This document shows, in pieces, positions 31,953 through 41,782 of a stretch of DNA of 64,000 bases; position 1 is the stretch's first letter; every line of letters starts with the position of its first letter. The translations under genes were made by a program, and so were the position numbers. Origin of the DNA: Adlercreutzia hattorii (lineage in GTDB: Bacteria > Actinomycetota > Coriobacteriia > Coriobacteriales > Eggerthellaceae); assembly GCF_011405655.1 (NCBI RefSeq), contig NZ_AP022829.1:372001-436000 (forward strand), given 5' to 3'. The notes under the pieces are model-generated. The model saw only the letters and a program-made list of their open reading frames with translations. It was not told the DNA's origin and made no database searches.

Positions 31953-33533
31953 ATGACCGACACCAATAGCACCCCCACGCCTCCAGGCGACTCTGCCTCG
32001 GGCGGCCACACCCTCGCATCGCAGCAGCCGGTACCGCTGCAGCCGACTCAGCCTGCGCCCTACAGCGCCCAGGGCACTCAGCCCTACGGCGGTCAGCAGG
32101 CTTATGCGGGCCACGCAGGCTACGGAGCCCAGCAGCCCTACGGCTACGGAGCCCAGCAGGCGCCCGGCTCCGCGCAGCATTCCGCCAGCCAGCCTTATGG
32201 CCAGCAAACTTACGAGGCCGAGCCCGTGTCGATGCATGCCCAACACGCGGCTCCCAAGGGCAACGGCGGCAAGACCTTCCTCATCGCCTTCGCCGGCGCG
32301 CTCGTGGCCTGTGTACTCGCCTTCGGCGTGTGGGGCATTACGAGTGCGATGATTCCGGGCAGTTCTGGCTCGGGTACTTCAACGGTCGTCACCGACCCCT
32401 CCACCGGCGAGACGACGGTCATCGCGCCCAGCGAGGATCCGACGCTGGCCGAGGCCGTGTCCGCGAAGTGCTTGCCCTCTGTGGCCGCCATCACGGTGTA
32501 CGCCGAGGCTTCCCAGAATGACGCGATGAGCCAGTACTTCGGCTACCCGTACGGTGGCCAGGGCGACGGGTCGGGCGATCTGGTGGCCTATTCCCAGGGA
32601 TCTGGCGTCGTGCTGACCGAGGATGGCTACATCATCACCAACAACCATGTGGTGGAAGGCGGCAGCGCCTACGAGGTCATGGTCGCCGGAGAGACCTACG
32701 AGGCCGATCTCGTGGGCACCGATCCCTCCTCCGACGTGGCCGTGCTGAAGGCCAAGGACGCCAGCGGTCTTACGGTTATGGAGCTTGGCGACTCCGACAA
32801 CCTGACCATCGGCGAGTGGGTTATGACGTTGGGCAGCCCCTTCGGCTTGGAGCAGTCGGTGGCCACGGGCATCGTATCTGCCACGAGCCGCTCCCAGATT
32901 ATGGACGCCCAGGAATCGATGCAGTCCGGCGGCACGGGGGAGATTACCATTTACCCGAACATGATCCAGACCGACGCGGCCATCAACCCCGGCAATTCCG
33001 GCGGCGCGCTGGTGGATGACGAGGGCAAGCTCATCGGCATCAACACGCTGATCACCTCGTACTCCGGCAACTACTCCGGTGTCGGGTTCGCCATTCCCGT
33101 GAACTACGCCATCAACTTGGCCCAGCAGATCATCGCCGGTGAGACGCCGACCCATGCTCAGCTCGGCGTGAGCCTCTCCACGGTGAGCGCGGCGACGGCA
33201 TCCCGCTACGGCCTGCCCGTCGACGCCGGCGCCTACGTGGCCGCCGTCACCCCCGACTCCGGTGCGGCTGCGGCGGGCATCGTGCCTGGCGACATCGTCA
33301 CTGCCTTCGATGGACAGGCGGTTGAGTCGGCTTCCGACCTCATGCTGGACGTGCGCACCAAGAACCCCGGCGACACCGTCACCCTCACGGTGAACAGCGG
33401 TGGTCAGGAGAAAGAGGTGCAGGTGACCCTGGGCGACGACTCCGCTAGCCAAAAGGCCAAGCAGGAGCAGCAGAGCCAGGAGCAGTCGATGAACGGCTAC
33501 AGCCTGGAAGACCTCTTCGGCCGCCAGCGCTAA
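31953..33533 (+). CDS. htrA: HtrA/DegP-type membrane-anchored serine protease
   Basis: A 526-residue protein. A Gln/Pro/Tyr-rich cytoplasmic tail (about 1-105) precedes one membrane helix (FLIAFAGALVACVLAFGVW). The trypsin-like domain has catalytic His232 (ITNNHVVEGG), Asp261 (DPSSDVAVL) and Ser349 (NPGNSGGAL). One PDZ domain (about 405-500, QLGVSLSTV...) and a Gln/Ser-rich tail close it. The expected role is envelope protein quality control. The leader from 31692 has no gene; GAAGGAG precedes the ATG. Confidence 0.95.
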   Translation: MTDTNSTPTPPGDSASGGHTLASQQPVPLQPTQPAPYSAQGTQPYGGQQAYAGHAGYGAQQPYGYGAQQAPGSAQHSASQPYGQQTYEAEPVSMHAQHAAPKGNGGKTFLIAFAGALVACVLAFGVWGITSAMIPGSSGSGTSTVVTDPSTGETTVIAPSEDPTLAEAVSAKCLPSVAAITVYAEASQNDAMSQYFGYPYGGQGDGSGDLVAYSQGSGVVLTEDGYIITNNHVVEGGSAYEVMVAGETYEADLVGTDPSSDVAVLKAKDASGLTVMELGDSDNLTIGEWVMTLGSPFGLEQSVATGIVSATSRSQIMDAQESMQSGGTGEITIYPNMIQTDAAINPGNSGGALVDDEGKLIGINTLITSYSGNYSGVGFAIPVNYAINLAQQIIAGETPTHAQLGVSLSTVSAATASRYGLPVDAGAYVAAVTPDSGAAAAGIVPGDIVTAFDGQAVESASDLMLDVRTKNPGDTVTLTVNSGGQEKEVQVTLGDDSASQKAKQEQQSQEQSMNGYSLEDLFGRQR

Positions 33534-33761: not shown

Positions 33762-35135
33762 GTGAGGTTCGGCCCTAACGTAGTGGAGCACGCTCCCTTT
33801 TCCATCCCCATGATCGGCAACACCGCGACTGGCTACTCCATCGGGCTCACGCCGGAGGGCGCCGCCGTGTGCCATCGCATGTTTTCCGAGGACGTGACCG
33901 AAGCAGAGGTCGCCGCAGTGCATGCGGATTTGCCCGCCCATTTGCGCCGTGGCGGCTTTGTCGTGGAAGATGTGGAGGCCGACGACGTAACATTGGGGAA
34001 AGGCGTGGAAGGCGTCGAGCGTGCGGAAGGCGTCGGGGCTGGGAATGCCGCTGCGGCTGCATCCGCGCCGTCCGCGTCCGCTGTGCCCGCGCCGCTGCAG
34101 TCGGCGTACCTGCACGTCACCCACCATTGCAACTTGAACTGCATCGGCTGCTACTCGGCGGTGGACGCCCGCAACACCCGGCGCGACCTGACGCTGGACG
34201 AGCTGCGCGGCATCATCGACGCTTTGGCCGATGCCGGCTGCCAGCATGTGGTCATCTCCGGTGGCGAGCCCTTCCTGCGCGACGATTTGCCCGCCATTGT
34301 CGCTTACGTGCGCGAGCGCGGCATCGCCTCGGTGGACGTGCTCACCAACGGCACGGCCGTCACGCCGGAGAAGCTCGCCGCCATCGCGCCCTACGTGGGC
34401 CGCGTCTCGGTGTCCTTCGACGGTCCCAACGCCGAGGCGGCGCCGGTCATCCGCCGCGAGCCCCTGTTCGACCGCCTGGTAGCGGCGGTGGAGATGATTC
34501 GCGAGGCGGGTATTCAGCCCCACATCATCCCGACGGCCCATGGCGGCAACATCGATGCCCTGGGCGAGTACGTGGCCCTGGCCGACTCCCTCGGCGCTAC
34601 CATGAACTTCAGCCTGCTGTCCGCTCCCGTGGAAAGCGACGAGCTGGCCGCGGTCCTTCCCGACGATGCGGCACTCGAGCGTTTGGCGCAGGCAACGCTG
34701 GCCCTGTCGCGCGACGGGGTGCCCGTGTTGTCCGACACGCCGGTGAGCACGCGCTTGACGACGACGTGCGGCTGCGGGGCGGGATGCGCCATGGTAAGCG
34801 TATCGGCCGATGGCGAGGTGTTTCCCTGTCACATGATGCACGATGGGGTGTTTAGCTTGGGATCGCTTTTGGAAGACTCCGGCTGCTTGGCCGCGCGCCA
34901 TGCCCCTGCGCCCCGCGTGGCCGAGCTGGCCGCCTGCGCCGACTGCGACATCCGCTATCTGTGCGGGGGTGGTTGCCGCGCTCGCGCCTATTTCGCCACG
35001 GGCGACGTCGAGGCCCGCGATCCCTATTGTGCCCTCATGCGGACGTTCTACCGTCTGCTTTTTGAGGCCATGTTAGGTCGCAACCAAAGAAAGGAGGAGG
35101 AATCATGCTGTTCTATAGCGATGCAGAGCCGCTGA
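33762..35135 (+). CDS. Radical SAM/SPASM peptide maturase
   Basis: A 457-residue enzyme starting at GTG 33762 with GAGGAG upstream. Residues 1-65 form a small domain with PqqD/RRE-like wording (IGLTPEGAAVCHRMF...LRRGGFVVED), which could bind a peptide leader; this is inference. An Ala/Val-rich linker follows. The radical SAM cluster motif is C123-x3-C127-x2-C130 (CNLNCIGC), with the GGE motif in ISGGEPF. The C-terminal SPASM region carries CGCGAGC, PCHMM, CADCDIRYLCGGGC and DPYC for auxiliary clusters. Such enzymes crosslink or epimerise ribosomal peptides. Its 3' end overlaps a 28-codon ORF. Confidence 0.9.
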   Translation: MRFGPNVVEHAPFSIPMIGNTATGYSIGLTPEGAAVCHRMFSEDVTEAEVAAVHADLPAHLRRGGFVVEDVEADDVTLGKGVEGVERAEGVGAGNAAAAASAPSASAVPAPLQSAYLHVTHHCNLNCIGCYSAVDARNTRRDLTLDELRGIIDALADAGCQHVVISGGEPFLRDDLPAIVAYVRERGIASVDVLTNGTAVTPEKLAAIAPYVGRVSVSFDGPNAEAAPVIRREPLFDRLVAAVEMIREAGIQPHIIPTAHGGNIDALGEYVALADSLGATMNFSLLSAPVESDELAAVLPDDAALERLAQATLALSRDGVPVLSDTPVSTRLTTTCGCGAGCAMVSVSADGEVFPCHMMHDGVFSLGSLLEDSGCLAARHAPAPRVAELAACADCDIRYLCGGGCRARAYFATGDVEARDPYCALMRTFYRLLFEAMLGRNQRKEEESCCSIAMQSR

Positions 35136-35191
35136 GCATCTGTGCGGTGATTGGTCCCGACCACACCCATTGTGTTCAGATCGGGTTTTAG
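35105..35191 (+). CDS. 28-residue peptide overlapping the maturase end; candidate RiPP precursor
   Basis: ATG 35105 follows AAAGGAGGAGGAATC, a near-perfect ribosome site located inside the 3' end of the maturase gene. The peptide begins MLFYSDAEPLSIC and ends HTHCVQIGF, with two cysteines ten residues apart, aromatic and His residues, and no membrane segment. The strong start signal and 31-base overlap with a radical SAM/SPASM gene make it a candidate maturase substrate. It lacks a long conventional leader, so a regulatory or chance ORF is possible. Confidence 0.5.
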   Translation: MLFYSDAEPLSICAVIGPDHTHCVQIGF

Positions 35192-35207: not shown

Positions 35208-35240
35208 GCAATCCGGCGTTGGCCTTTTGCGTCGGATTGC
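35208..35240 (+). promoter_or_regulatory. Hairpin between the peptide ORF and the DUF2975 gene
   Basis: GCAATCCG and CGGATTGC pair across a 17-base loop. No T-run, so more likely an attenuator or RNA stabiliser than a terminator. A strong AAAGGAGG follows at 35252 for the next gene. Confidence 0.5.
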
Positions 35241-35267: not shown

Positions 35268-35795
35268 GTGACGAAGAGCAATACTTTAGAGCAATCGCTT
35301 AAACACGCCTCGCATGTATGTCGAGTGATCAATGTGATGCTGACGGTATTGCTAATAGGCGCTGGTCTCATTTGGTTAACGGCATTGGTCATGTCTTTCG
35401 CTCAGCTTGGCGCGGCAGGATTCGATGGCATGTCGCTTGTTGCGTATATAGTGCTTTATGGAGTCCTTGTACTTGGCGTTTTGGCAATGCTGAAGCTTAT
35501 CTTCAAGGATGCAGTCAATAGCGAAACGCCATTTACAGAAAAGCAGGCAGATCGCCTCAGATTCATTGCGTTCCTTGCGCTCATGTTTGCACTTCTCGAA
35601 TTTGCATTTACCCTCGGGGTGACATTCGAGGTAGTTCCACGCATAGGCTACGATGTGATAGTAAATAGAGGGTCAACTGAGCCTGTTATAAGTATTAATG
35701 TTGGAGTACTCGTCTTTTCTGCTATTATGTACTCACTTTCGGCAATATTTCGATATGCTGCGCTGCTACAGCAACTCAGCGACGAAACCGTGTAA
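35268..35795 (+). CDS. DUF2975 membrane protein
   Basis: A 175-residue protein with four hydrophobic segments (about residues 22-48, 58-82, 102-123, 140-163). GTG start at 35268 with AAAGGAGG eight bases upstream. DUF2975 proteins are usually encoded next to a small Xre regulator, as here (10-base gap). Its base composition is AT-richer than its neighbours, suggesting different ancestry. No function is established. Confidence 0.85.
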   Translation: MTKSNTLEQSLKHASHVCRVINVMLTVLLIGAGLIWLTALVMSFAQLGAAGFDGMSLVAYIVLYGVLVLGVLAMLKLIFKDAVNSETPFTEKQADRLRFIAFLALMFALLEFAFTLGVTFEVVPRIGYDVIVNRGSTEPVISINVGVLVFSAIMYSLSAIFRYAALLQQLSDETV

Positions 35796-36407: not shown

Positions 36408-36818
36408 ATCTCGCCGAAGATTGCTGGGAACGTCATCGGGAGCAACACGGCGGGCACGATTCGGGCCGGCGAGCGTCTCGACAGGACTGTCGATCTTGTG
36501 CTGAAGAGGAAGGACATCTGGGACGAGATCCAGATGTCCCAGGCGACGAGGAAGGCTCGGGATCTGTCGAGAGCGGACACAGTGAAGACGACCGTGGGGA
36601 AGAGGAATGGGTCGGCAGCCGATGCTTTCAAGAAGGAATACAGGAAAGACTCGGTGCCTGCTGGTTACGATGTCGATCATGTAATAGATCTTCAGCTGGG
36701 AAGCGCCGACCATGTGAGCAACATGCGCCCCCTCGACGCCAGCGTCAACCGGAGCATGGGAGCTCAGATACGCTATCCGATAAAGGATCTTCCAGAAGGC
36801 ACCAAATCGGCAACGTGA
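36408..36818 (+). pseudogene. Orphan C-terminal toxin domain, HNH-like, frameshifted near its end
   Basis: An open frame follows an in-frame stop at 36405. From about 36498 it encodes a polymorphic-toxin-type tail with GYDVDHVIDLQLGSADHVSN and PLDASVNRSMGAQI, an HNH-nuclease-like His/Asp/Asn pattern. No secretion or repeat domains are attached, so this is a detached cassette. The end reads KDLPEGTKSAT then stop; adding one A at about 36810 would give KDLPEGTKIGNVIFE, so a one-base deletion has likely truncated it. An immunity-type gene follows. Confidence 0.7.
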
Positions 36819-36840
36819 TATTCGAGTGAAAGGAAGCGAG

Positions 36841-37491
36841 ATGTTCGACTTGTTCAAGAGGAAGAAGGGCCGCGGGGCCCGGCGGAGGGCGACCCCCTCG
36901 ATGTTCGCGGAGTTTCTGGAGTACTTCGGGGAGGCCCCGGTCCTCGAGGACGGGGCGGCCGATCCCTACGACGCGTTCATCGACGGCCTGGGCGGCCGGT
37001 CGTTCGGCGATGGAGTGTTCAGGGTGTTCGAGCGCAGTGATCTCGAGAGATGGCATCGGGTGGTGTCCGGATGCTTCACGAAGCTTCGCGGTGAGTTTAA
37101 TCTGATCGGATACGATTGGATGGGGCGGTGCTTTGCGGTTGATCAACGGGACGGCGATGGGAAGGAGCTCGTGGTTCTCCTGGAAATCGCAACTCTCGAT
37201 ATGTACTATATCGGGAAAGACGTGGCAGTCTTCCTGAACGAGGTTATGCCGAATCAGAGCGAGGCGTGTCTTGGGGTCGGGAGGTATCGGGAGTGGCTGG
37301 AGGGGCATGCGCCCGTGGGACGCATGGAATGCGGCGGCTACAGGATCCCTCTCTTCCTCGGCGGGGAGGACTCCCTGGAGAACATGGAGGTCTCCGACAT
37401 GGAGGTGTACTGGGATATGACTGACCAGCTGTGGGAGGCCGTGAAGGACCTGCCCGAGGGCACCAAGATAGGCAACATCAGCTTCGAGTAG
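36841..37491 (+). CDS. Immunity protein, Tdi1/DUF1851-like
   Basis: A 216-residue soluble protein starting at ATG 36841 with AAAGGAAG upstream. The GAD-like N-terminal part and C-terminal segment (FNLIGYDWMGRCFAVDQ, LEIATLDMYYIGKDV, FLNEVMPNQSEACLG) match the DUF1851/T6SS immunity Tdi1 family, which neutralises a cognate toxin. It sits just after a toxin tail, the normal order. Its last residues KDLPEGTKIGNISFE nearly repeat the reconstructed end of the toxin. Confidence 0.8.
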   Translation: MFDLFKRKKGRGARRRATPSMFAEFLEYFGEAPVLEDGAADPYDAFIDGLGGRSFGDGVFRVFERSDLERWHRVVSGCFTKLRGEFNLIGYDWMGRCFAVDQRDGDGKELVVLLEIATLDMYYIGKDVAVFLNEVMPNQSEACLGVGRYREWLEGHAPVGRMECGGYRIPLFLGGEDSLENMEVSDMEVYWDMTDQLWEAVKDLPEGTKIGNISFE

Positions 37492-38609: not shown

Positions 38610-38825
38610 CTACCTCGGGCCGCCGCCCAGGGCGCGCTCGACCGCGGGGTAGTCGAAGTCCGCGGCCCAGATCTCAACCTCCAGCGCCGGGGAGCCCTCG
38701 GCGTCCCCGGGCGCGACCGCCCAGCTCGTGACCTCCCATCCGCCGAGCTGCGGGAACCTGACCGTCACCGCGACGTCCTCTGCGCCGAACGCGGCCAGCC
38801 ACCCCGCGGCGTCCGCGGCCCTCAC
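38610..38825 (-). CDS. Extra small ORF in the IS21 element, coupled to istB
   Basis: 71 codons from GTG 38825, overlapping the istB stop as GTGA. The product is soluble-looking, with GWLAAFGAEDVAVTVRFPQL and LEVEIWAADFDYPAVERAL, and no recognised family. Standard IS21 elements have only istA and istB, so this is an accessory gene. The stop-start overlap argues for translation. Confidence 0.6.
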   Translation of the reverse strand: MRAADAAGWLAAFGAEDVAVTVRFPQLGGWEVTSWAVAPGDAEGSPALEVEIWAADFDYPAVERALGGGPR

Positions 38826-39619
38826 GACTGCCCCCTCTCGGGCAGCCCGTCGCCGTCGGCCGCCTCGGCCAGCAGGTCCTTCATGCGGTAGGACCGCCCC
38901 GTTATCTTGAGCATCGTGCAGTGGTGGCACACCCGGTCGGCGATGGCCGCGGCGGTCACCGCGTCCCCGAACACGTCGGCCCAAAGGCCCACGGCCACGT
39001 TGGTGGTGATGACCGTGGAGCGGTGCTCGTAGCGGGCCGAGACGAGCTGGAACAGCAGGTCGGCCCCCTCCTCGTCCACGTCCAGGTAGCCGAGCTCGTC
39101 GATGATGAGCAGCGTCGCGTGGGCGTAGTACTTCAGCCTCTTCGCCAGGATGCCGCGCGAGGAGGCGTCCTTCAGGTCGCGCACCAGCGCCGCGCAGTCG
39201 GTGAAGCGCACCTCCTTGCGGGCGCGCACCGCCTCCACCCCCAGCGCCACCGCGATGTGGGTCTTGCCCACGCCCGGGCTGCCGACCAGAACCACGTTCT
39301 CGGCCGCGTCCAGGAACCTGAGCGTGGCCAGGTCGTCCACGACGGCCCTGGGTATGGAGGGCTGGAAGGAGAAGTCGAAGTCGGCCAGCGTCTTGACGAA
39401 CGGGAAGCCGGCGGCGCGCACCTTGCGGTCGGTCCCGCGACGGCGCTTGGCCTCGGCCTCCTCGGAGGTCATGGCGAGCATCGCCGAGGCGAAGTCGGCC
39501 TCGCCGGCGGCCACCGCCGACATCCAGTGGGGCAGCCCCGCCGCCATGGCGTCCAGCCCCAGCTCCGAGAGGTTCTCGCGTATGCGGGCGTAGGCGCCGC
39601 CCTCGTCCCGGGCGCTCAC
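38822..39619 (-). CDS. istB: IS21 helper ATPase IstB
   Basis: A 265-residue DnaC/IstB-like ATPase starting at GTG 39619, overlapping the istA stop as GTGA. Walker A is VGSPGVGKTHIAVAL, Walker B LLIIDELGYLD, and the sensor reads VITTNVAVGLW. It ends with DRVCHHCTMLKITGRSYRMK, typical of IstB. It assists the IstA transposase in target choice. The longer open frame in the same phase to 40711 is a shadow of istA. Confidence 0.94.
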   Translation of the reverse strand: MSARDEGGAYARIRENLSELGLDAMAAGLPHWMSAVAAGEADFASAMLAMTSEEAEAKRRRGTDRKVRAAGFPFVKTLADFDFSFQPSIPRAVVDDLATLRFLDAAENVVLVGSPGVGKTHIAVALGVEAVRARKEVRFTDCAALVRDLKDASSRGILAKRLKYYAHATLLIIDELGYLDVDEEGADLLFQLVSARYEHRSTVITTNVAVGLWADVFGDAVTAAAIADRVCHHCTMLKITGRSYRMKDLLAEAADGDGLPERGQS

Positions 39620-40860
39620 AGCGACCCCTCCCCGAGCCTGCCGAGCAGCTCCAGGTTGGCGCGGGCCGCCGCCTCGATGTCGGCGTCGGCGTAGCGCGCC
39701 TTCGCGGCCAGGGCCTCGGCGTAGTGCGCCGGGTCGTAGACGACGGGCCCTCCCGGGGCCGACAGGTCGTGGACCGCGACGGTCTCGCCGGCCATCTCCA
39801 CCCTCACCTGGCCCGACGGCATCGCGAGCACCTTGACGCGCCTGCCTATGCAGCGCCGGGGCACCGAGAACTCGCGGCCCCGGCAGCGGACGAGCATCGT
39901 GGGGGGCGCCGCCTGGACGGAGACGTCGGCCACCATCGACTCCAAAAGCCCCATGTTGCCCACCTTGCGCAGCTCCTCCTTCTCGCGCATGAACAGCACC
40001 GCCGGCGGCACCCCGGTCGACGCGCTGGGCTCGGTGTTGCACCGCGCCTCGATGCGCGCGATGGCGGCCACGAGCCCCTCCTCGCCGCGGAAGTCGCCCT
40101 CGTAGACGGCCAGCCTCGACAGGAACCGGTTCGACGACTCCACCTTGCCCTTGGTCTGCGGGCTCCTCGGCCGCGCCAGCTCCAGCTCGAAGCCCGCCGC
40201 GGCGGCGAACCTGGCGAAGCGCGCCGAGACGCGCCGCCCCGAGGCGGAGGACGAGACGATGGAGGACATGTTGTCGGTGACCAGCGTGCGCGCCGTGCCT
40301 CCGTTGGCGGCCATCACCGCCAGCAGGCACGCCATGACGTCGTCCTCGGTGCGCGTCCTGGAGTAGACGAACCGGTGGAGCCGGGAGTAGCCCAGCGTGG
40401 CCGAGAACACGTTGAACTCGAACACCTCGCCCTCGGCGTCGGCCATGCGCAGCGACTCCTTCCAGTCGAACTGCATCTGCTCGCCGGGCGCCGTCTCGAA
40501 GCGGGGGTGGGGCTCGGGGCCCTCCGGAGGGCGCCCGCACTCGATGCCGTTGCGGCGCATCCACTTGGTGAGCGTGTTGTAGGCCGGCGGCTCCTCGCCG
40601 GCGTAGCAGCGGTCGATCAGGTACTCGTAGATGCCGCGCTTGGTCGCGCCGGGCAGCTGCGCCTTGGCCTCTATGACCTCCCTGTGGCGGTCCAGCCCGC
40701 TCGGGCGGCACCTGCGCGCGTCCTCCACCTGGCCGCCGGCCTTCCAGTACTTGGCCACCGTGTGCCGGTTCATGCCGTAGCGCCGGGCGATGTCGGTGAA
40801 GTTGGGCGTGGTGCCCGCCTGCCTGTACATGTCGAACTCTCCCATGATGTTCCTTTCCAA
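39616..40860 (-). CDS. istA: IS21 transposase IstA
   Basis: A 414-residue transposase. The N-terminal HTH (DIARRYGMNRHTVAKYW) is followed by an rve-type DDE core: Asp in QMQFDWKES, Asp in LVTDNMSS and Glu in KGKVESSNRF. The C-terminal beta-barrel (VRCRGREFSVPRRCIGR) is typical. The N-terminal MERNIMGEF has an alternative ATG six codons in. Transposition is into the Rpn gene described above. Confidence 0.95.
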   Translation of the reverse strand: MERNIMGEFDMYRQAGTTPNFTDIARRYGMNRHTVAKYWKAGGQVEDARRCRPSGLDRHREVIEAKAQLPGATKRGIYEYLIDRCYAGEEPPAYNTLTKWMRRNGIECGRPPEGPEPHPRFETAPGEQMQFDWKESLRMADAEGEVFEFNVFSATLGYSRLHRFVYSRTRTEDDVMACLLAVMAANGGTARTLVTDNMSSIVSSSASGRRVSARFARFAAAAGFELELARPRSPQTKGKVESSNRFLSRLAVYEGDFRGEEGLVAAIARIEARCNTEPSASTGVPPAVLFMREKEELRKVGNMGLLESMVADVSVQAAPPTMLVRCRGREFSVPRRCIGRRVKVLAMPSGQVRVEMAGETVAVHDLSAPGGPVVYDPAHYAEALAAKARYADADIEAAARANLELLGRLGEGSL

Positions 40861-41557: not shown

Positions 41558-41782
41558 ATGCCTATTGTGTCGAAGTTGAAGGTGGTCATGGCCGACCGCG
41601 ACATCAGCGTCAACGAGCTGTCGGAGAAGGTGGGGCGTTCGGCGGTGAACCTCTCCCACTTGCGCTGCAATCGCTCAAAAGGTATTCGGATCTCGCTGCT
41701 GGAGGATTTGTGTCGCGAGCTGCACTGCCAACCGGGCGATTTACTCGTGTACGAGCCGCCCGCTCGCGAGGAGCAGGACTGA
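41558..41782 (+). CDS. Xre-family small DNA-binding regulator
   Basis: A 74-residue Cro/C1-type HTH protein (VMADRDISVNELSEKVGRSA, ending HCQPGDLLVYEPP). It is clearly related to the first 68 residues of the regulator at 35806 but lacks its tail. GATGGGAG precedes ATG 41558. An AT-rich promoter with TATATT lies near 41446. No partner gene is coupled; a divergent-direction HTH gene follows tail to tail. Confidence 0.88.
   Translation: MPIVSKLKVVMADRDISVNELSEKVGRSAVNLSHLRCNRSKGIRISLLEDLCRELHCQPGDLLVYEPPAREEQD

Follow-up and report, generated by a model that had tools for sequence, protein, structure and literature searches.

A conserved short peptide gene beside a radical SAM/SPASM maturase: a candidate modified-peptide family of Coriobacteria

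Is the 28-codon open reading frame (ORF) that overlaps the end of a radical SAM/SPASM maturase gene in Adlercreutzia hattorii a genuine gene, and what kind of system would the two form? The pair lies in a 64,000-nt stretch of contig NZ_AP022829.1, called here the window, from a genome of 2.9 Mb in a single contig. A sequence-only reading of this DNA had picked out a maturase with a CNLNCIGC motif and SPASM cysteines, a Shine-Dalgarno sequence in the 3' end of its gene, the overlapping 28-codon ORF, and a DUF2975/Xre pair behind it, and had proposed that these encode a ribosomally synthesised and post-translationally modified peptide (RiPP) together with its enzyme and, perhaps, its immunity or control. 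All of the elements were present where it had placed them (Table 1), the peptide ORF beginning 31 nt before the maturase stop codon in a different frame. The results described below establish the ORF as a gene, and on balance we favour the view that it belongs to a so far undescribed group of coriobacterial RiPPs, every peptide being paired with a dedicated regulator and with a dedicated receptor/immunity protein in the membrane.

Maturase orthologues were collected from 138 genomes of the family Eggerthellaceae (E 1e-40) and from a class sample of 396 genomes (E 1e-45). They occurred in 37 and 67 genomes, respectively, the 67 genomes of the class sample holding 72 loci. The sequence-only reading had named loss of the small ORF beside maturase orthologues as the observation that should overturn it; a peptide beginning Met-Leu-Phe (MLF) or Met-Gln-Phe (MQF) is in fact encoded in the same cassette at 67 of the 72 loci. 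A motif search found the peptide at 64 of these, and three more loci (L055, L058 and L066) carry long forms of 51-64 residues. Because this search, which yielded 77 peptide ORFs, demanded an MLF or MQF start, a Cys and a length of 18-45 residues, counts over the 77 are conditional on those features. A recount with a start of M[LQ]F, 18-70 residues and a Shine-Dalgarno score of 5, in which Cys was not demanded, was again positive at 67 of the 72 loci, and Cys was present in all 67. The five negative loci comprise two cut by a contig end (L067 and L128), L039, which has no peptide, L044, which has no recognisable one and perhaps a remnant, and L140, where the frame is broken in a genome that is 85% complete.

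The peptide ORFs also behave as translated genes. The Shine-Dalgarno score was at least 5 of 7 in 76 of the 77, and purifying selection is clear: nonsynonymous change was below synonymous change (dN<dS) in all 43 comparable peptide pairs, with a pN/pS of 0.30. Residues M1, L2, F3, C13, G17, C23 and G27 are invariant among 33 two-Cys peptides. A chance ORF is rejected because the residues are conserved and under purifying selection, and it is ruled out as well by the Shine-Dalgarno scores and by profile matches that, within the family, are confined to maturase genomes. The two-Cys profile matched 36 of the 138 family genomes, every one among the 37 with a maturase; in the 37th (G111) two divergent peptides adjoin the maturase. 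In the class sample it matched 38 of 396 genomes, all within the 67 maturase genomes. The phylum sample, searched with the two-Cys profile alone and covering presence within Actinomycetota, gave matches in 8 of 396 genomes, all Eggerthellaceae. A short-peptide profile (E 0.01) matched 40 of the 396 class genomes, namely 23 maturase genomes, one further genome (G411, considered below) and 16 judged to be chance; 15 of the latter covered no more than positions 1-18 and fell within longer open frames (110-191 residues) of one genus, and the sixteenth (G001) had an E value of 0.009. No maturase match was found on plasmids or phages at E 1e-40. The 28-codon ORF is confirmed as a genuine gene. Adjacency at the great majority of loci and co-occurrence across the family tie this conserved precursor gene genetically to a modifying enzyme, as would be expected of a RiPP system, and the proposed pairing of enzyme and peptide has gained support from this conservation.

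The peptides share a simple plan. Among the 77 ORFs the start is MLF in 75 and MQF in two. Most peptides are 21-38 residues long, setting aside the three long forms. The first Cys is constant; the second is missing from a group of short peptides (21-25 residues), which are without the loop that holds it and have MLF, the first Cys and a C-terminal Gly after a hydrophobic residue. These short peptides typify the order's other two families, with exceptions at L113-L115 and L136-L138. A bridge between two cysteines is not a general feature, since 24 of the 77 peptides hold one Cys (46 hold two and seven hold three). The two cysteines remarked on in the first reading are therefore a property of the window peptide and the other two-Cys members, and the second is not essential. 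The maturases of L118-L135 form one tree group with moderate support (88/71), the deepest branches of the tree being unsure; nearly all go with short peptides, L128 being cut by a contig end and the peptides of L133 and L134 having three Cys. Neither the 33 two-Cys nor 17 short peptides corresponded to a family model in scans of NCBIfam and Pfam, where each library produced a single stray match per set. A second complete module (L048), with the one-Cys short peptide MLFHSEAQMMSLCFAIGILEIGY, was seen about 4.9 kb past the first cassette in an Eggerthellaceae genome (G054).

To what class does the enzyme belong? The three cysteines of its CxxxCxxC motif (C123, C127 and C130; CNLNCIGC spans residues 123-130 in the window copy) are invariant in 48 of 48 orthologues. 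The SPASM domain has a seven-Cys pattern, CX9-15GX4C, CX2CX5CX3C and a final C; in the same 48 orthologues, C338, G351, C356, C392, C395, C401, C405 and C423 are invariant. Against the Pfam SPASM model (cutoff 21.5) the window copy reached only 17.0, and 47 of the 48 members matched at E 1. Judged by CxxxCxxC and the seven SPASM cysteines, the window protein belongs to the radical SAM/SPASM enzymes. It fell below the cutoff of all of the best 25 curated maturase models, including the sactipeptide and ranthipeptide models StsB (123.4 of 625 bits), SCIFF (66.1 of 425) and PapB (79.4 of 340), as well as PqqE (91.2 of 381.35) and mycofactocin (108.2 of 265). The nearest solved sequences were 5wgg (CteB; the best, E 2.4e-32), PqqE and SkfB.

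Residues 1-64 of the maturase were modelled as three strands followed by three helices in the full-length prediction, which is of low confidence (mean predicted local distance difference test score, pLDDT, 49.9), and as two strands, three helices and one strand when folded alone (mean pLDDT 61.9). A fold search with the latter domain gave weak matches, among the five listed 5why (Z 2.5) and the leader-binding protein TbiB1 (Z 2.3); Foldseek returned nothing under E 0.5. When the N-terminal profile was compared by hhalign with a PqqD protein encoded in the same genome, the E value was 0.036 and the probability 1.4%. The order of strands and helices suits a RiPP recognition element (RRE) in the full-length model, and does so less well in the isolated domain. 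We consider this a candidate RRE-like domain that is likely to serve in peptide recognition.

The peptide is accompanied by further genes with great regularity. Within 500 nt downstream of 74 of the 77 peptides lies a DUF2975-like gene; both G111 peptides are exceptions, as is a single locus that borders a contig end. For an HTH_26 gene the count is 70 of the 77. The suggestion that the DUF2975/Xre pair acts in immunity or control has been strengthened by this co-occurrence. In most loci the order is maturase, peptide, DUF2975, HTH; in L049, L051, L054, L057, L059, L114 and L115 it is peptide, DUF2975, HTH, maturase. Since gene order varies in this way, peptide, DUF2975 and HTH are best regarded as a module. 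The overlap with the enzyme gene, noted in the sequence-only reading, is a variable trait: a peptide start ahead of the maturase stop, as in the window, was counted at 13 of the 72 loci. Mostly the start comes just after that stop; other peptides lie upstream of a DUF2975-HTH-maturase block, or unlinked. Eight unlinked peptide-DUF2975 modules (L103-L110), found by a profile search that is independent of adjacency, lie in genomes with a maturase elsewhere, and one enzyme may therefore serve several peptides. In G054, which has four modules and one maturase match, a single enzyme probably serves all four.

The DUF2975-like proteins give only borderline Pfam scores. In the window protein, the Pfam scan at E 1 lists DUF2975, CitMHS and NAD_kinase, each below its own cutoff, and no SdpI-family match; seven further copies gave DUF2975 scores of 27.3, 19.9 and 14.2 bits in three and no match in four (cutoff 27). 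A profile built from the members themselves unites them as one family. DUF2975 also occurs in other phyla, being present in 5 of 14 control genomes, and may be paired with HTH_26 there.

Beyond the maturase, DUF2975 and HTH genes, no shared neighbour cluster is larger than that of a divergent LysR-type gene (22 genes in 20 genomes). At 16 loci, among them L024, L047 and L113, this gene stands next to the maturase on its upstream side; limited to those 20 genomes and absent elsewhere, it was rejected as a core part of the cassette. An HtrA protease gene upstream in the window (31953-33533) was considered as a leader peptidase and set aside, as it is outside the 25 largest neighbour clusters. 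A dedicated exporter was likewise rejected, the loci holding scattered ABC genes only. At L056 and L129, which belong to different families, similar ABC transporter ATPases (44% identity) occur with membrane proteins 2.5-3 kb past the maturase. An anti-phage role was dismissed, PADLOC returning, besides weak HTH matches, no more than the similarity to viperin that radical SAM proteins have in general. The G111 locus (L061) has a composition of its own: its maturase is joined by two MLF peptides in tandem, followed by an ABC ATPase, a candidate permease with no Pfam match and an Rce1-like CAAX protease.

How does the cassette compare with known systems? The maturases of CteB (SCIFF), SkfB and StsB share with it the radical SAM and SPASM cysteines, a small N-terminal domain and an adjacent precursor gene, and 5wgg and StsB are its best sequence matches in the PDB and NCBIfam, respectively. 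The window enzyme nevertheless falls far below every curated cutoff for them, and the precursor differs in being short, with one to three Cys and an MLF start, and in having neither a long leader nor a Cys-rich core. A very short precursor with a SPASM enzyme recalls PQQ and mycofactocin, from which the cassette differs in the unmet curated cutoffs and in the several peptides per genome of some species. According to PMC6818787, a peptide toxin in the SDP and YIT sets of Bacillus subtilis comes with a regulator gene and with a membrane anti-toxin dedicated to it. SDP (SdpC/SdpI/SdpR) and YIT (YitPOM/YitQ/YizB) thus resemble the coriobacterial cassette in having a peptide, a membrane partner and a regulator, whereas they are not described in that account with a radical SAM enzyme, and the coriobacterial cassette is without shared secretion genes. 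The epipeptide system EPE (epeXEPAB), as described in PMC12871923, joins a radical SAM peptide to a protease and ABC immunity; it shares peptide and radical SAM enzyme with the cassette, and in the G111 variant the likeness extends to an ABC ATPase and a membrane-type protease. The EPE peptide is of another family, the usual cassette has the DUF2975-HTH pair instead, and epimerisation is not implied. PMC7738495 has SCIFF peptides as its subject and PMC4289311 lists an NHLP cluster in Eggerthella lenta. No publication on the cassette was found in literature searches, which covered few subscription papers. By its logic the cassette is of RiPP type, and its precursor and partner set match none of the families tested here; therefore, it would represent an undescribed variant of RiPP system.

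These results suggest a model whereby the short precursor is bound at its conserved Met-Leu-Phe N terminus, probably by the N-terminal domain of the maturase, and the enzyme modifies the C-terminal stretch that surrounds the constant Cys. Because of the enzyme class and the constancy of this Cys, the most likely product would be a thioether that joins Cys to a residue close by. The mature peptide, short, hydrophobic and Gly-containing, would act at the membrane, where the DUF2975-like protein, with four predicted transmembrane segments, would be the dedicated receptor/immunity protein for the peptide encoded beside it. HTH_26 would be a switch that makes expression depend on whether the peptide occupies that protein, much as in SdpC-SdpI-SdpR or YIT-YitQ-YizB.

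Several observations weigh against this model. Sequence-profile searches detect no RRE in the maturase N-terminal domain, modification of the peptide is something that we infer, and an exporter or protease is not among the widely shared neighbours. The module is not always whole: the G111 peptides have neither DUF2975 nor HTH_26, the unlinked L107 has no HTH match, and in L103 the HTH gene is on the other strand. At L039 and L044 a maturase and an HTH gene stand without a cis peptide or DUF2975, their genomes carrying a peptide-DUF2975 pair on another stretch. Conversely, G411 (76% complete) has the module yet is not among the 67 maturase genomes. Finally, the covariation of the partners is inconsistent. 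Among 30 cis modules from Eggerthellaceae, distances between peptides follow those between DUF2975 proteins once the maturase is accounted for (partial r 0.55, reached in 0 of 1000 permutations, counts that overstate significance on related sequences), and their correlation with the maturase after removing DUF2975 is 0.15. In 22 modules from other families, however, the peptide tracks the maturase (partial r 0.53) and not DUF2975 (0.04). Since the test gave opposite results in the two sets, its support for a tie between peptide and DUF2975 is partial.

The same evidence bears on the strongest alternative, that the system is for signalling only, with the modified peptide as a pheromone, the DUF2975-like protein as its receptor, HTH_26 as the output regulator and no toxicity. 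A membrane protein and regulator beside nearly every peptide, several modules per genome with one maturase, the lack of a widely shared exporter or immunity ABC and the covariation in Eggerthellaceae would all suit such a role. Yet the ABC ATPase and CAAX-type protease that adjoin the G111 peptides form an arrangement known from a toxic peptide, covariation of peptide and DUF2975 is not seen in the other families, and a secretion route was not identified, so that we regard pure signalling as possible and somewhat doubtful. It is very improbable that the peptide is turned into a small redox cofactor in the way that PqqA gives rise to PQQ and MftA to mycofactocin: a short precursor, a SPASM enzyme and the presence of PqqE and mycofactocin models among the maturase matches recall such systems, but the scores are far under the cutoffs, no dehydrogenase is among the 25 largest neighbour clusters as named by eye, and each genome has one to four divergent peptides, each with its own membrane protein. 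Least credible is the reading in which translation of the ORF, as a regulatory leader peptide, governs DUF2975 expression and the maturase has some other substrate; for although the ORF is short, has a strong Shine-Dalgarno sequence, nearly always precedes DUF2975 and is followed by terminator-like hairpins in some loci (22 of 77, against 5 of 77 shuffled controls), its residues are conserved beyond what mere translation demands, in unlinked copies too, and its distribution in the family follows that of the maturase.

Table 1. Coordinates of the cassette features within the window
Feature	Position	Strand	Evidence
Radical SAM/SPASM maturase, 457 residues	33762..35135	+	GTG start; Pfam Radical_SAM 94.2 bits (cutoff 29.5); invariant cysteines
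Maturase N-terminal domain, residues 1-64, possible RRE-like peptide-recognition domain	33762..33953	+	Conserved among orthologues; profile searches negative
Shine-Dalgarno sequence AAAGGAGGAGG of the peptide, within the maturase 3' end	35090..35100	+	Read from the sequence
28-codon precursor peptide gene MLFYSDAEPLSICAVIGPDHTHCVQIGF, ATG at 35105	35105..35191	+	Invariant residues; purifying selection
Inverted repeat GCAATCCG...CGGATTGC in the gap that separates the peptide and DUF2975 genes, without a T-run	35208..35240	+	Spotted by eye
DUF2975-like membrane protein, 175 residues, four hydrophobic segments	35268..35795	+	Pfam DUF2975 22.2 bits, below the 27-bit cutoff; four transmembrane windows
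HTH_26 (Cro/C1-type) regulator, 106 residues	35806..36126	+	Pfam HTH_26 81.9 bits, above the gathering cutoff of 22

No terminator-like hairpin was called for the window peptide in the scan of the 77 peptide ORFs. Downstream of the cassette, a short ORF with no Pfam match (36498-36818, + strand) resembles by eye the nuclease tail of a polymorphic toxin, and the next gene (36826-37491, +) has a T6SS_Tdi1_C immunity match of 27.8 bits. Two overlapping long ORFs (38822-40860, - strand) look by eye like an IS21-type transposase/helper pair, and a second, solitary HTH_26-like regulator of 74 residues (41558-41782, +) lies 6.4 kb past the maturase.

If the RiPP model with a receptor/immunity partner is correct, the cassette would be a new modified-peptide family from gut Coriobacteria, with a precursor, mostly of 21-38 codons, that is easily missed by gene callers, and would give DUF2975-like proteins a first function. 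More tentatively, one radical SAM enzyme might mature several divergent peptides, with a separate DUF2975-like protein, wired to a separate HTH_26 switch, to read or neutralise each one, so as to provide private channels of self and non-self in each genome across an order of gut Coriobacteria. Met-Leu-Phe is the classic ligand of formyl-peptide receptors, and it may be speculated that the host could perceive MLF-start peptides that such commensals release.
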